Of a stretch of DNA of 46,228 nt, positions 1 to 10,305 are shown piece by piece. Position 1 is the first letter of the stretch. Each line of letters starts with the position of its first letter. The notes under the pieces were generated by a model. It did not search any database and was not told where the DNA came from. It worked only from the letters and a program-made list of their open reading frames with translations. The stretch is from an uncultured Bacteroidia bacterium (lineage in GTDB: Bacteria; Bacteroidota; Bacteroidia; Bacteroidales; UBA932), in assembly GCA_902779785.1 (NCBI GenBank), contig CACZDC010000008.1, forward strand, positions 1-46,228, in the 5' to 3' direction. The position numbers were made by a program, and so were the translations under genes.

Positions 1-1
1 T

Positions 2-226
2 TCGCATCAATTCCGGCATTCAATGGCAACTCATCTCCTGGAAGATGGTATGAATATCTATCAGATTAGCAAGTTTCTCGGACACGAAAGCGTGCAAACG
101 ACAATGATCTATCTTGGATTTACGATCAATATGCGAAACAATTCTATCAGACAAGTTGAATCTACTGCAGCCAGCGTGATTAAACCAAGGTGGAATGCAA
201 ATATAAAGCTTCGGGATCTATTCTGA
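2..226 (+). CDS. Tyrosine recombinase, C-terminal end only (cut by window edge)
   Basis: The gene enters from the left edge, and 74 codons are visible before a TGA stop. They hold the C-terminal catalytic half of a tyrosine recombinase/integrase: HQFRHS supplies the H-x-x-R pair, LGHES the second histidine and TMIYLGF the nucleophilic tyrosine. About 35 residues follow the tyrosine and have no recognisable motif. The internal ATG at 23 lies inside the HxxR motif and cannot be the true start. The wording around the motifs resembles mobile-element integrases as much as housekeeping XerC/XerD, and the N-terminal part needed to decide is outside the window. Two Xer/dif-like sites lie 45-290 bp downstream, which makes a role in local recombination plausible but unproven. 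Confidence 0.85.
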
Positions 227-270
227 AATGTCCATTAGACGCAGCTGTAGGGCAGTTCTATACACAATAT

Positions 271-298
271 GGTTAACATAATATAAATTGTATAACCG
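271..298 (-). repeat. Xer/dif-like recombination site, copy 1 (minus orientation)
   Basis: Read on the minus strand, this 28-bp stretch has an 11-bp arm beginning CGGTTATACAA, a 6-bp spacer TTTATA and an 11-bp arm TTATGTTAACC. The second arm matches the highly conserved XerD-binding half of bacterial dif sites (TTATGTTAA), and 11+6+11 is the dif architecture. It shares 17 identical bases with the site at 485-512, in opposite orientation. The identification rests on motif resemblance; no recombination is shown. Confidence 0.55.
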
Positions 299-484
299 AA
301 TTTACAAGGAGGGGAGTCACCGCTATAAGCCTGAAACTTCTTTGGATTTTGGAAAAGAAATAGGAACTTTTTTACAGGGATATATCGAATATTTCGTAAA
401 TTTACAACATCAGAACGCTGGTTATAAGAATACTGATCAAATTGAGTTCCTATTTCCTTTTGGTTCCGATAATAATCTAAATAA

Positions 485-512
485 GAACGTTCCGATTTAT
501 ATTATGTTAACT
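485..512 (+). repeat. Xer/dif-like recombination site, copy 2 (plus orientation)
   Basis: The layout is GAACGTTCCGA, then spacer TTTATA, then TTATGTTAACT. The spacer and the XerD-type arm are essentially identical to those of copy 1, while the XerC-type arm differs. Equal spacers are what Xer strand exchange requires. The site ends 18 bp before the stop codon of the convergent lipoate ligase gene, so it may mark the border between mobile DNA and the conserved chromosome. Confidence 0.5.
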
Positions 513-529
513 AATAGATTCGAAAAACA

Positions 530-1492
530 CTACCCTAGCAAGAATGAAACAAATTCAGAGGCGGAAACGCCGTCAAAATACTCCCCGATCAGTTGGCTAA
601 CTATATCATACAGAGCGTCTTCTGAAAAACTGGATGCAATAAGTGAACGCTCAAGTCCGGACACTTCTTTGTCTCCGATAAAATCGCCTGTGAAGCGAAT
701 ATCTTTGATAATTCCGTGAGATACTGAAATATCTGCGCGGATATTTCCGCAGTTGAAATGCTTTTCCCGTACAATTCCGCTTAAGGGAGATCGACCGTAA
801 ATCCACTCTTCACGCCGGAAACGCTTGTCGGCCAAATCGTTGATTTCAGCCCAGGAGGCCTCTTCAAGCATAATCTTACCGTCTCTTCCAGACAAAATAT
901 CTTCTAGACCAGCCTTGAAACTGTCTATCGTAGTCCCGGACGGAAGGAAATCCTTCAAATTCGCCACACGGCTTCGCACAGAATCCACTCCCTTTGAAGA
1001 AAGCTTACTCCCCTGCGCTGAAAGAACATTTATAAGTACCTGAATATCAACGTTAAACATTAAAGTTCCGTGAATCAGTACCCTGTCTTTCCACAAGCGT
1101 TTGGCATAGCCGGAGCATTTACGACCGTCGACCAAAATGTCGTTTCGCCCGCTGATATCCGCAGGAACGCCCATAGAACGAAGCGCAGCGGCAATCATAC
1201 CCACCGGATTGCAAAGACTTCCTCTCGGAAGCACGAAACTGTAGTTCAGGTTCTGGAGGTCGTGATATACTGCTCCCCCGCCGGTCAGGCGTCTTGCAAG
1301 CACAATTCCATTTTCTTTCAGATATCCAAGATTGACTTCGGTGAATGCGCTCTGGTTAAGGCCAATGATTACAGACGGGGCATTTCTCCAGAGATAGAAA
1401 AACGGCTCGTCAAAAGCACTTTTCTCAAGACAATACTGCTCGAAAGCCATATTGAATTGAGGATCGGTCGAAGTCTGACTCAAATACTTCAC
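530..1492 (-). CDS. lplA: Lipoate--protein ligase (LplA family)
   Basis: About 320 residues from a GTG start. The family attaches free lipoate, via lipoyl-AMP, to lysines of lipoyl domains such as GcvH and the E2 subunits. The biotin/lipoate ligase fold is recognisable: STDPQFNMAFEQY near the N-terminus, SVIIGLNQSAFTEVN, the RRLTGGGAVYHD nucleotide-binding loop and DGRKCSGYAKR containing the catalytic lysine region. An in-frame ATG 18 codons upstream (1546) would overlap the divergent rlmD start and the promoter. The GTG gives the usual family N-terminus and lies just 4 nt after a minus-strand TATATTTG box. It is a likely partner of the glycine cleavage genes at 28418-34000, whose GcvH needs lipoylation. 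Confidence 0.92.
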   Translation of the reverse strand: MKYLSQTSTDPQFNMAFEQYCLEKSAFDEPFFYLWRNAPSVIIGLNQSAFTEVNLGYLKENGIVLARRLTGGGAVYHDLQNLNYSFVLPRGSLCNPVGMIAAALRSMGVPADISGRNDILVDGRKCSGYAKRLWKDRVLIHGTLMFNVDIQVLINVLSAQGSKLSSKGVDSVRSRVANLKDFLPSGTTIDSFKAGLEDILSGRDGKIMLEEASWAEINDLADKRFRREEWIYGRSPLSGIVREKHFNCGNIRADISVSHGIIKDIRFTGDFIGDKEVSGLERSLIASSFSEDALYDIVSQLIGEYFDGVSASEFVSFLLG

Positions 1493-1496
1493 GAAG

Positions 1497-1504
1497 CAAA
1501 TATA
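1497..1504 (-). promoter_or_regulatory. -7 promoter element of lplA (TATATTTG)
   Basis: Exact match to the Bacteroidota -7 consensus TAnnTTTG, ending 4 nt before the GTG start. No clear TTTG -33 element is seen. Transcription would start at or next to the initiation codon. Confidence 0.6.
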
Positions 1505-1525
1505 CGAATTTCCGATTTTTTTGCG

Positions 1526-1533
1526 TAAATTTG
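1526..1533 (+). promoter_or_regulatory. -7 promoter element of rlmD-like gene (TAAATTTG)
   Basis: Exact TAnnTTTG match ending 6 nt before the ATG at 1540. Together with the lplA element it forms a divergent promoter region of only 47 bp between the two start codons. Confidence 0.6.
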
Positions 1534-1539
1534 TAGGAT

Positions 1540-2946
1540 ATGGCAAGGAAAAAAACAGATCTTCTGCTTGAAGGCGTTACCATCCAGGCCGTCGCCGCTG
1601 AAGGGAAAGCCCTTTCTCACGTCGACGGAATGGTTGTTTTTGTGGATTTCGCCGTTCCCGGCGACGTGGTCGACATACGCGTCTACAAGAAAAAGAAAAA
1701 CTATATGGAAGGTCGCGTAGAAAGACTGGTCAGTCCTTCTCCGGTCCGTGAAAAACCATTTTGCGAGCATTTCGGGATCTGCGGCGGATGTCGCTGGCAG
1801 CTTCTCCCCTACTCGATGCAGCTTGAAGCCAAACGTCAGCAGGTGGAAGACCAGCTAGTACGCATCGGCCACTTGAACGTTCCGGAAATACGGCCTACTC
1901 TCCCCTCCGAAAAGATTCGGGAGTACCGTAACAAATTGGAATACAGTGCTTCGGCCAAAAGATGGATTCTCAGCGGTGAGGATCCGGAGTCTGTAGCAGA
2001 AAACGACAGGATGGGTCTGGGTTTCCACGTCGGCAAGTTTTTCGACAAGGTCCTGGATATTAGACACTGTCACCTGCAGCGCGAGCCAAGCAATGCTATT
2101 CGCTTGTTTATCAAACAGTTCTGCGTCCAGCACGGCTATGAGTTCTACGATATACGTGAAAACAAGGGATATTTCCGCGGAGTTTTCGTGCGTACGAACG
2201 AAAATGGAGACGTAATGCTTATCGTCTGTCTCGGATATGAAGACAAAGAACGTAGAGAAGCCCTCCTGGAAGCGATTCTTGCCGAGTTCCCCAGCGTGGT
2301 TTCCCTCTATTATGTCATCAACCGCAAAGTGAACGACTCCATTTCTGACCAGGACTGCATCCTGTACAAAGGCTCGGGATTCATTACCGAGACTATGGAA
2401 GGCCTGCAATTCCGCATCGGTCCGAAGTCCTTCTACCAGACAAACTCCCCTCAGGCGTACAGGCTCTATTCAGTAGCCAGGGACTTTGCCTCCCTTAGCG
2501 GGAATGAAGTGGTCTACGACCTTTACACTGGCACCGGGACCATCGCCCAGTTCGTATCCTCCAAAGCAAAGAAGGTGATTGGCATTGAATATGTTCCGGA
2601 AGCGATAGCAGATGCTGAAGCCAATGCCGCCGCTAACGGTATAGACAATTGCTCCTTCTTTGCAGGAGATATGAAGGATGTGCTCAATGCCGCCTTCATC
2701 GAAGAACACGGCCGGCCGGATGTGATCATACTTGACCCTCCCCGCTCCGGCATCCATCCGGACGTTGCGAAGGTCATAATGGATGCAGCTCCGGAGCGTA
2801 TGGTCTATGTAAGCTGCAATCCGGCCTCCCAGGCCCGTGACCTCGCGATTTTCGCTCCTCTCTATGAAATCACCGCCGTGCAGCCTGTGGATATGTTCCC
2901 TCATACGATGCACGTTGAAAACGTCGTTGCTCTAAGGAAAAAATGA
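1540..2946 (+). CDS. rlmD: 23S rRNA (uracil-C5)-methyltransferase, RlmD/RumA type
   Basis: 468 residues, normal for the family, which uses SAM to methylate C5 of a uridine in 23S rRNA (U1939 in E. coli) and includes close paralogues acting on other uridines. The order is: TRAM RNA-binding domain (about 1-65), iron-sulfur cysteines C75, C81 and C84 in CEHFGICGGC, a SAM-binding loop YDLYTGTGT near 325, LDPPRSG, and the catalytic cysteine C426 in YVSCNPAS. The 4Fe-4S ligands and nucleophile are intact. Its stop overlaps the next start (ATGA), so it is probably co-transcribed with the antiporter. The exact target base cannot be read from sequence. Confidence 0.92.
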   Translation: MARKKTDLLLEGVTIQAVAAEGKALSHVDGMVVFVDFAVPGDVVDIRVYKKKKNYMEGRVERLVSPSPVREKPFCEHFGICGGCRWQLLPYSMQLEAKRQQVEDQLVRIGHLNVPEIRPTLPSEKIREYRNKLEYSASAKRWILSGEDPESVAENDRMGLGFHVGKFFDKVLDIRHCHLQREPSNAIRLFIKQFCVQHGYEFYDIRENKGYFRGVFVRTNENGDVMLIVCLGYEDKERREALLEAILAEFPSVVSLYYVINRKVNDSISDQDCILYKGSGFITETMEGLQFRIGPKSFYQTNSPQAYRLYSVARDFASLSGNEVVYDLYTGTGTIAQFVSSKAKKVIGIEYVPEAIADAEANAAANGIDNCSFFAGDMKDVLNAAFIEEHGRPDVIILDPPRSGIHPDVAKVIMDAAPERMVYVSCNPASQARDLAIFAPLYEITAVQPVDMFPHTMHVENVVALRKK

Positions 2947-8051: not shown

Positions 8052-9323
8052 ATGATTAACGCTTCTGTATGCACTATAGGTGACGAGATCCTGATAGGAC
8101 AAGTTATCGACACCAATTCAGCCGGTATTTCACGCTCTCTTGGAGAGGCCGGAATCCGCGTAAGGCGTATGCTCTCCATAGGCGACGACCGTGACGAGAT
8201 ATTTAACAATCTCCGTAATGAACTGAAACTGAATCCGATAGTTATAACTACCGGTGGCCTCGGACCTACGAAGGACGATATCACCAAAGCTGTCCTGGCG
8301 GAACTTTCCCACAGCTCGAAATACGTGGAAAACGCCGCCCAGATGGAAATAGTCTACAGGATTCTCCACAGTCGCGGCCTTGAAGTGCTCCCCAACAACA
8401 AAGCGCAGGCACTGGTCCCCGAAAATGCCGAAGTCATCCCCAATACGCTTGGAACGGCCCCGGTAATGGTCTTCCGCTTCAAGGAAGAAGAATATGGCCA
8501 TCCTGCCACGCTTTATGCCCTTCCGGGCGTTCCTTTTGAAGCAATGGGGATGCTTCCCGCCGTCCTGGACGACATCCGTGCCCACAACGAGCTCTGCGAC
8601 ATCCACCACCGTAACCTTATGGTCTATGGAATCGCTGAATCCGCTTTGTCACAGAAGATTGCCTCTTGGGAGGACGCTCTCCCCAAGGACATACACCTTG
8701 CATATCTGCCTAATCCCCTTACAGGCATCCGTCTGAGGCTGTCCATATATGGAGGCCATAAGGAGGAGGAAATGCTCCGTATCGAGTCAGAAGTGGCCAA
8801 ATTAAAGGGAATTCTCGGCAATCTGATCTATTCAGACGACGACGACTCCCTGGAAAATACGGTAGGACGTCTGCTTAAACAAAGCGGGAAGACTCTCAGT
8901 GCCGCGGAGAGTTGCACGGGTGGCGAAATATCACATCTTATTACTTCAATCCCAGGCTCTTCCGCCTATTATCTGGGATCGGTCACCTCGTATGCCGTGG
9001 AAGTGAAGGAAAAAGTACTCGGCGTACCTGCAGAAACCATAGAAAAATACGGCGTAGTCAGCAGCGAAGTCGCAGCCGCTATGGCAGATGGCGTCAGATG
9101 TCTTACAGGCAGTGATTATTCCGTGGCGACCACCGGTCTTGCCGGCCCCGGAGACGACGGAAAGAATCCTGTCGGGACAGTCTGGATCGCAGTCAGCGGA
9201 CCTGCCGGCACGAGGACTGTCTGCCGTAATTACAAGAATGACCGTAAACGCAATATTGAGCGTTTTGCGGCCTCCGCATTAGACTTTTTGAGGCTTTATT
9301 TGACTGAAACAAAAATGTTATAA
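8052..9323 (+). CDS. cinA: CinA family protein, two-domain (nucleotide pyrophosphatase / nicotinamide-nucleotide amidase)
   Basis: 423 residues, full length. The N-terminal molybdopterin-binding-like (COG1058) domain has GDEILIGQVIDTN and the TTGGLGPTKDD loop (67-76), associated with ADP-ribose or NMN-related pyrophosphatase activity. A linker leads to the C-terminal PncC domain (about 265-420) with AAESCTGG, whose serine and cysteine region belongs to the nicotinamide-mononucleotide deamidase active site, then TGLAGPGDDGKNPVGTV. The role is NAD salvage or pyridine nucleotide clean-up. The 'competence' name is historical, and no competence genes are nearby. Confidence 0.95.
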   Translation: MINASVCTIGDEILIGQVIDTNSAGISRSLGEAGIRVRRMLSIGDDRDEIFNNLRNELKLNPIVITTGGLGPTKDDITKAVLAELSHSSKYVENAAQMEIVYRILHSRGLEVLPNNKAQALVPENAEVIPNTLGTAPVMVFRFKEEEYGHPATLYALPGVPFEAMGMLPAVLDDIRAHNELCDIHHRNLMVYGIAESALSQKIASWEDALPKDIHLAYLPNPLTGIRLRLSIYGGHKEEEMLRIESEVAKLKGILGNLIYSDDDDSLENTVGRLLKQSGKTLSAAESCTGGEISHLITSIPGSSAYYLGSVTSYAVEVKEKVLGVPAETIEKYGVVSSEVAAAMADGVRCLTGSDYSVATTGLAGPGDDGKNPVGTVWIAVSGPAGTRTVCRNYKNDRKRNIERFAASALDFLRLYLTETKML

Positions 9324-9348: not shown

Positions 9349-10305
9349 TTATTTAGAGCAACTTATAATCCTATCCATTACAGCAAGCAGATTTCCCCCT
9401 GAAATGAGGGAAATTTGCTCTTCGCTGTATCCGCGACGCCTCATTTCCTCGAAAACCTTAGGCAGACAACCCACGTTTTCCATCCCTTCCGGGGTAATTT
9501 CAATGCCGTCGTAGTCGCTTCCTATACCAACGTGTTCCACTCCGGCAAGGCGGACGGCGTGGTCGATATGGTCAACAATTTCTTTTACTCCGGGAGGTGT
9601 TTTCAGAGGATCTTCAACCAAAAAATATGGGTAGAAGTTTATGCCCACATAAGCGTCTTTGTCTTTCAGCGCACGAAGCATATCGTCAGTGAGATTGCGG
9701 CGGTGAGAGCAAAGCGCCCGGCAGCAGGAATGGGTTGCGACGACGGGAGCTTCGGAAAGTTCGATGCAGTCCCAGAAAGTACGGTCGGAAGCGTGGGAAA
9801 GGTCAATCATCATTCCGAGCTCATTCATCCTCTTTACCACTTTCTTTCCAAATGGACTCAGACCTCCCCACCTGCTTCCCTCTGCGGCGCTGTCCGCGAC
9901 TGAATTGTCTCCATTATGGGTCAGAGTGACATATCTGACACCTATCTTATGGAATGCCTCGAGAAGATCCAGTGATTCCTGAATCGGCGAAGCATTCTCC
10001 ATACCGAGAAAGAGTGAAATCTTTCCTTTAGCTTGATTTATGTAAAAGTCTGAAGGTGAATATGCACTGGCAAACTCCCCTTTTGACTCCCTGATGATTC
10101 TTTCCACTGCTCCTGCCATTTCCAGGGCGTGAGCGGTAGCTTCGTCCGGAGAGAGCTGAGCGGAACAATAGAGCGCAAAAAAAGCGGCACCGACCTCTCC
10201 CCTGCGCAGTTTCGGCAAATCTACCTGCTGAGCTGAGCCGTCAATAAAAATATCCCGGCCTCGCAGCAGCTCGGTCGGGGTATCCATATGTGAATCGAAA
10301 ACCAT
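9349..10305 (-). CDS. Membrane dipeptidase, peptidase family M19
   Basis: 318 residues of the renal-dipeptidase TIM-barrel family, which hydrolyses dipeptides including those with a D-residue. Zinc ligands are recognisable: H6 and D8 in FDSHMDTP, the bridging glutamate in FLGMENAS, LSHAS and VATHSCC, followed by GIGSDYDG. There is no signal peptide, so a cytoplasmic location is likely. It is the last gene of the valS run. Its ATG overlaps the stop of the GIN protein by one base (TAATG). Confidence 0.93.
   Translation of the reverse strand: MVFDSHMDTPTELLRGRDIFIDGSAQQVDLPKLRRGEVGAAFFALYCSAQLSPDEATAHALEMAGAVERIIRESKGEFASAYSPSDFYINQAKGKISLFLGMENASPIQESLDLLEAFHKIGVRYVTLTHNGDNSVADSAAEGSRWGGLSPFGKKVVKRMNELGMMIDLSHASDRTFWDCIELSEAPVVATHSCCRALCSHRRNLTDDMLRALKDKDAYVGINFYPYFLVEDPLKTPPGVKEIVDHIDHAVRLAGVEHVGIGSDYDGIEITPEGMENVGCLPKVFEEMRRRGYSEEQISLISGGNLLAVMDRIISCSK

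Follow-up and report, generated by a model that had tools for sequence, protein, structure and literature searches.

The left end of the DNA stretch analysed here (the window, 46,228 nucleotides from an uncultured Bacteroidia bacterium of the UBA932 lineage) holds two dif-like sequences in inverted orientation, next to the end of a tyrosine recombinase gene. A first-pass annotation had read this arrangement in two ways: as a 190-bp segment that is inverted by Xer-type recombination, or as the end of an element that uses the host XerCD, in which case the second site would be the former chromosomal dif or a target border. The question raised by this locus is what kind of element ends here, which recombinases are associated with it, and what role the dif copy inside it may have.

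Two unequal dif-like sites

The two sites share a perfect 17-nt inverted repeat with arms at 272-288 and 495-511, which are 206 nt apart. A perfect inverted repeat of at least 17 nt was observed in none of 1000 first-order Markov simulations (maximum 14), which were modelled on window 1-1500 with repeat starts up to 300 bp apart, and the 17-mer has just these two occurrences, at up to two mismatches, in the own genome (2.78 Mb, 126 contigs). Both this repeat, which is exact, and the identity of the TTTATA spacers had been reported in the first-pass annotation and are borne out. The dif geometry that it had assigned to both sites holds for site 1 but not for site 2.

Site 1 (271-298) has the 28-bp build of a dif, with an XerC arm, a 6-bp spacer and an XerD arm that fit the genus consensus TTGTTAYACAA TTTATA TTATGTTAACT, obtained from 60 loci with one dif found in each. 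Its score of 40.2 bits lies inside the native range of these 60 sites (34.9-49.2 bits). The dif prediction that had been suggested for this genome, carried out as a search of the own 126-contig draft at up to three mismatches, returned site 1 alone. Site 2 (485-512) scores -7.6 bits as a whole, and just its spacer and XerD arm fit. The XerD arm reaches 19.6 bits, a score that is found at 1.1e-6 of random positions; the stretch GAACGTTCCGA in the place of the XerC arm scores -37.8 bits, which is equalled by 45% of random positions, so that site 2 has no XerC arm. Judged by its letters, site 2 is half a dif and not a complete site. The host encodes a XerD, which scores 339.3 bits against a cut-off of 329.6, and a XerC-like protein that scores 228.9 bits, below its cut-off of 335.15.

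These results bear directly on the Xer-driven inversion switch of the 190-bp segment. The inverted XerD halves with equal spacers would be in line with such a switch, but an XerC arm is lacking at site 2, the segment has the same orientation in all three copies seen whole (G000, G371 and G317), and the segment resembles the terminus of a RIT element, as described below. An inversion switch is therefore considered highly improbable, and this part of the first-pass annotation was abandoned.

For the native situation, 60 dif loci of the genus were surveyed, which were hand-picked among the matches listed rather than drawn at random and from which RIT-bearing genomes were excluded. Because each locus was picked for holding a dif, the presence of dif in 60 of 60 carries no evidence by itself. 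The gene for an RNA (uracil-5-)-methyltransferase, which we take to be rlmD, lies on the XerD-arm side in 46 of the 60 loci (within 160 bp in 35 of the 60) and on the XerC-arm side in four, and was not seen in ten. The XerD half of site 2 faces lplA and rlmD, as the XerD arm faces rlmD in these 46 loci. Matches to ritA, ritB and ritC at E 1e-8 were found in none of the 60 loci. In the relative G120, the cumulative GC-skew maximum lies 39 kb from dif, in a 400-kb stretch in which the skew is weak; the own genome is a draft.

Several side observations concern the surroundings of dif in the genus. A strand-polarised TCCCC is present within 100 bp of dif on the XerC side in 15 and on the XerD side in 38 of the 60 surveyed loci (L178-L237), against 12% of background 100-bp windows, and its complement GGGGA in one and three loci, respectively (background 9%). 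In several genomes (L069, L151, L152, L202, L205, L280, L058, L066 and L088), genes for YefM-YoeB, HigBA and a barstar-like protein (toxin-antitoxin or immunity) were seen no more than about 2 kb from dif or from RIT ends, YefM/YoeB being present in two of the 60 surveyed loci. Another family of dif-like sites, which have the spacers TATGGA, TTCGGA and TTCCGA (L149, L150, L153, L154 and L155), has a common XerC-side flank ending GCGTC. In addition, palindromic sites made of two inverted XerD halves were observed at L157 (about 8117-8144) and L148 (about 10234-10261), with no rit match there.

A transferred block and its RIT-like end

When window 1-512 was compared with 400 genus genomes, near-complete copies were found in G371 (98%) and G317 (91%), and partial copies in G275, G191, G291, G014, G128, G292 and others. 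Positions 1-495 behave as a single unit of transfer: identity to G371 is 98.3% over window 19-495, whereas it is only 71.3% for rlmD, which points to a recent horizontal transfer. Among the eight named genomes, the contigs of seven end between window 1 and 453, and the contig of G275 ends 331 bp beyond window 1; such contig ends would be expected of an element that is present in several backgrounds. The features of the block and its chromosomal neighbours are collected in Table 1.

Table 1. Features at the left end of the window, with positions and strands as in the window.
Feature	Position	Strand	Remarks
3' end of ritC-like tyrosine recombinase gene	2..226	+	74 codons + stop; Pfam PF00589, E 1.2e-11
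Complete dif within the element (site 1); minus-strand parts: XerC arm CGGTTATACAA, spacer TTTATA, XerD arm TTATGTTAACC	271..298	-	dif match; 40.2 bits vs 60 genus dif sites
XerC-side flank of the carried dif, with GGAGGGGAG	299..330	.	Partial similarity to L068 and L088
Inner inverted repeat, left arm; right subterminal repeat of the RIT, AAAAGAAATAGGAACT	353..368	.	Similar layout after ritC in Prevotella RIT L089
RIT right terminal repeat GAGTTCCTATTTCCTTTTGGTTCCGATAATAATC	444..477	.	Includes the right arm of the inner repeat, 445-460
Imperfectly palindromic junction piece TAAATAAGAACGTTCCGA	478..495	.	Missing from the intact dif of G191
Native chromosomal dif remnant (site 2, right part), made up of the spacer TTTATA and the XerD arm TTATGTTAACT	496..512	+	XerD arm 19.6 bits
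lplA, lipoate-protein ligase, chromosomal neighbour	530..1546	-	Pfam PF21948, E 8.1e-56
RNA (uracil-5-)-methyltransferase, called rlmD	1540..2946	+	Pfam PF05958, E 1.7e-16; frequent dif neighbour in the genus

Contig C8 of the own assembly begins at window base 1, and for this reason just the last 74 codons of the recombinase are visible. The frame stops at 224-226 and matches Phage_integrase (E 1.2e-11), which confirms the recombinase gene that the first-pass annotation had placed upstream of the sites. Of the full length of this tyrosine recombinase, which it had suggested checking, C8 holds these last codons. The fragment is 52% identical, over 73 aa, to the third trio recombinase (RitC) of locus L068.

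RIT elements are defined by three such recombinase genes, which overlap by 4-8 bp (PMC3414803), with 34-bp terminal repeats (PMC10214605), as given in the available parts of these two sources. Locus L068, from the relative G206, contains three overlapping tyrosine recombinase genes encoding proteins of 425, 323 and 339 aa, followed by a dif-like site and a tail similar to that of the window. These proteins best match, in order, RitA, RitB and RitC of pHG1, of a Priestia megaterium plasmid, of a Bacteroides ovatus plasmid and of the Prevotella locus L089, and in a comparison with four other RITs each of them fell with its own family, in the order A, B, C. The genes overlap by 14 and 4 bp in the trios of L068 and L088; the window holds the end of ritC alone. 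As in the RIT elements of Cupriavidus metallidurans CH34 and pHG1, adjacent and overlapping RitA/RitB/RitC-related genes are thus found in this order in L068, L088 and L089. What sets the present element apart from these RIT elements is its location in dif and the dif that it carries behind ritC. No dif was found in the 500 bp that follow ritC in pHG1, B. ovatus and P. megaterium, save one weak XerD-arm-like match in the last, and none was found in the 90 bp of L089.

The likeness extends to the right terminus. Terminal inverted repeats are present in Prevotella L089, whose right end and inner inverted repeat resemble window 353-477. In the window, the arms of the inner inverted repeat (353-368 and 445-460) are 94% complementary; this repeat, absent from the first-pass annotation, belongs to the element terminus. 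The terminal repeat at 444-477 resembles its counterpart in L089 and the termini found at another 12 genus junctions, and the flank at 299-330 is 70.0% (L068) and 64.5% (L088) identical over about 30 nt. A perfect 32-bp palindrome abuts two of the three other RITs with visible flanks, but not that of B. ovatus; a test for perfect palindromes gave none at the junction of the window and none in B. ovatus.

On the left side, no RIT junction was seen in the 15 genomes from which terminal-repeat matches were re-read. The left terminal repeat was sought in these genomes at up to two mismatches, resulting in 37 matches, 30 of which were re-read as loci; outside the known right ends, none of the 30 resembled a RIT end or adjoined rit genes. 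In L068, L088 and L282, the sequence upstream of ritA shows no RIT terminal repeat, and L088 has no RIT right terminus. A close RitA was found in G206 only, among 17 junction-bearing or related genomes, and at E 1e-60 in none of 393 genomes of the order, a set without a positive control.

Other recombinase loci were noted along the way. L262 (G192) has a further trio-like set of recombinase-like frames, next to a sequence that by eye resembles a transposase, and L093, a Muribaculum contig of 4156 bp with a title coverage of 1074, has two recombinase-like frames. The RIT contig L088 is binned as Lachnospiraceae; it may be misbinned, because its RitC is 84% identical to the RitC of a Bacteroidales bin.

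A junction inside dif, probably the native site

The right-junction pattern was found at 17 sites in 16 of the 400 genus genomes, and the reversed control pattern at none. A RIT-like terminus is present at the junction in 13 of these 16 genomes; the remaining sites with the pattern, in G217 (both strands), G239 and G313, lack such a terminus and were dropped as RIT junctions. The spacer is TTTATA at nine of the 13 RIT-like junctions, and TTTGGA (G250 and G183), TTTAGA (G206) or TTTACA (G415) at the remaining four. These four junctions, together with the intact dif that G250 has on a separate contig, indicate that not every such end sits in a native dif.

To the right of the XerD arm the flank is host-specific, and to the left it is conserved. 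At 12 junctions examined for neighbours (G183 was left out), rlmD lies within 2 kb in six, at distances of 6 bp (G371), 14 bp (G292), 44 bp (G317), 343 bp (G128), 1028 bp (G000) and 1933 bp (G192). The gene rarA lies within 7 kb of the junction in G014, G291 and G415, and an acyltransferase gene 3.7 kb away in G191. All three genes also flank surveyed dif loci.

The comparison with relatives for an empty site, which had been proposed earlier, yielded a candidate. The bin G191 contains an occupied contig (C36) and an intact dif on contig C93, with an identical XerD flank of about 43 bp that reaches the end of C93. If C93 represents the empty site, the target is dif and positions 478-495 arrived with the element; the intact dif of C93 could also belong to a different strain within G191. 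The two contigs of G415 were rejected as an empty/occupied pair, as their common flank is only about 36 bp long and then diverges. In a dif search at up to three mismatches, 15 of 20 genomes gave any match. Five of the 12 junction genomes in this search had no dif match at all, and their contigs end inside the block or its tail. The right end of L068 meets an XerC-type half. A suspected group II intron beside the junction at L174 found no support from Rfam (13 sources, three tRNAs only).

The junction could also be read as the border of an element that has a pair of inverted dif-like att sites and relies on the host XerCD in the style of CTXphi or of Bacteroidales microviruses, possibly as a folded single strand, with the RIT genes as passengers. 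The dif-like pair is inverted, a Xer exchange would be consistent with a junction on the XerC side of the spacer, and the Bacteroidales microvirus proviruses BMV4-6 have an additional dif-like site, which is compared with CTXphi in the available part of PMC3091885. As single-stranded DNA, positions 227-530 fold better than their shuffled versions (z -2.99, equalled or bettered by none of 100), but 345-515 by itself shows no such advantage (equalled or bettered by 31 of 200). Also against this reading, site 2 is without an XerC arm, and relatives have RIT recombinases and RIT-like termini. A phage or plasmid origin was rejected, with no DNA similar to 227-512 in phage or plasmid records; the terminus pattern had no exact match in viral contigs, and viral scans with recombinase queries gave four loci, three loci and none, all of them distant. 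An XerCD-dependent att element therefore seems unlikely; insertion by the host XerCD is a possible route. Of the second alternative in the first-pass annotation, the element end is retained, with the second site as the old dif (a half-site of spacer and XerD arm) at the target border, whereas the use of the host XerCD is left as a possibility, given the three RIT-kind recombinases encoded by relatives.

The carried dif and a probable RIT element at dif

A 25-mer dif core is present behind ritC in five of the six copies with this region visible (G000, G371, G275, L068 and L088). Between G000 and L068 or L088, this core is identical at 22 and 23 of 25 positions, respectively, while the ritC end is 59-61% and the stretch from the stop codon to dif 48% identical. 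That the core was kept while its surroundings diverged suggests selection on dif. In G000, G371 and G275, the carried dif is the only complete dif found. Site 1 probably serves in chromosome dimer resolution. The carried dif could instead be an unused fossil that travels with the RIT element by accident. In agreement with this, G317 keeps the block while the XerD arm of its carried dif was lost in a deletion of about 34 bp, and a complete dif was not found elsewhere in the G317 assembly, where the search gave just one site with three mismatches and a different spacer; the carried dif of L068 and L088 has a changed spacer, TCTTTA. However, the conservation of the core across divergent ritC lineages and its standing as the only complete dif in three genomes argue against a fossil, which is considered quite improbable.

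IMEX, LME-1, the ISAjo2 group and Bacteroidales microviruses are earlier examples of elements that target dif. The sites of IMEX, which bring a dif mimic with them and to which LME-1 belongs, are in direct orientation. IMEX have no recombinase of their own and depend on the host Xer; here, a recombinase gene lies beside the site and a trio is present in L068. The dif modules of Acinetobacter have dif-like sites in inverted orientation. They resemble the present case in that genes, toxin-antitoxin genes included, are bounded by dif-like sites, but in the descriptions at hand they are known from plasmids and attributed to XerCD, with no recombinase trio. LME-1 sits at the chromosomal dif, brings a dif sequence with it and leaves one intact and one modified dif (PMC9765430). 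It is alike in its location and cargo, but in the available part of this source it is described as using the host XerL, whereas here a recombinase trio is found in relatives and the sites are in inverted orientation. The ISAjo2 group of the IS1202 family ('dif site hunters') consists of insertion sequences that share the preference for dif (PMC10132070). They differ in having a DDE transposase and in inserting 5 bp from the XerC arm with the site left unsplit, and no dif cargo is described for them in the sections available.

It is likely that window 1-495 is the right end of a RIT element that was inserted in the native dif and carries a replacement dif in the opposite orientation. At the level of sequence, the block transfer, the junction inside dif, the complete carried dif and the absence of an XerC arm from site 2 are established. 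Based on the RIT architecture and termini in relatives, the RIT recombinases would insert the element into the chromosomal dif, and ritA and ritB would lie upstream of window 1, as in L068. The right end of the element, with its imperfect palindrome, would in this way become joined to the dif spacer and XerD arm (496-512), where the XerC half would be gone. The complete dif at 271-298, between ritC and the right terminus and in the opposite orientation to the native remnant, would then act in chromosome dimer resolution. A more far-reaching proposal, which is put forward tentatively, is that a RIT lineage has specialised on dif. Its recombinases would recognise the XerD half, the host site would be destroyed, and the conserved carried dif would replace it in the opposite orientation and take over dimer resolution, allowing a low-cost residence in a near-essential site.

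RIT elements and dif-targeting elements are both already known. A RIT element at dif that carries a dif was not met in the literature searched, which was available in part and to which the main RIT survey (Ricker 2013) did not belong. The mobility of RIT elements, in the words of one source, 'remains to be experimentally demonstrated' (PMC3414803), and with this locus these elements would gain a candidate target with an empty/occupied comparison. If the proposed reading is true, a mobile element occupies dif via its own recombinases by replacing the site that it breaks, and whether the carried dif resolves chromosome dimers becomes testable.
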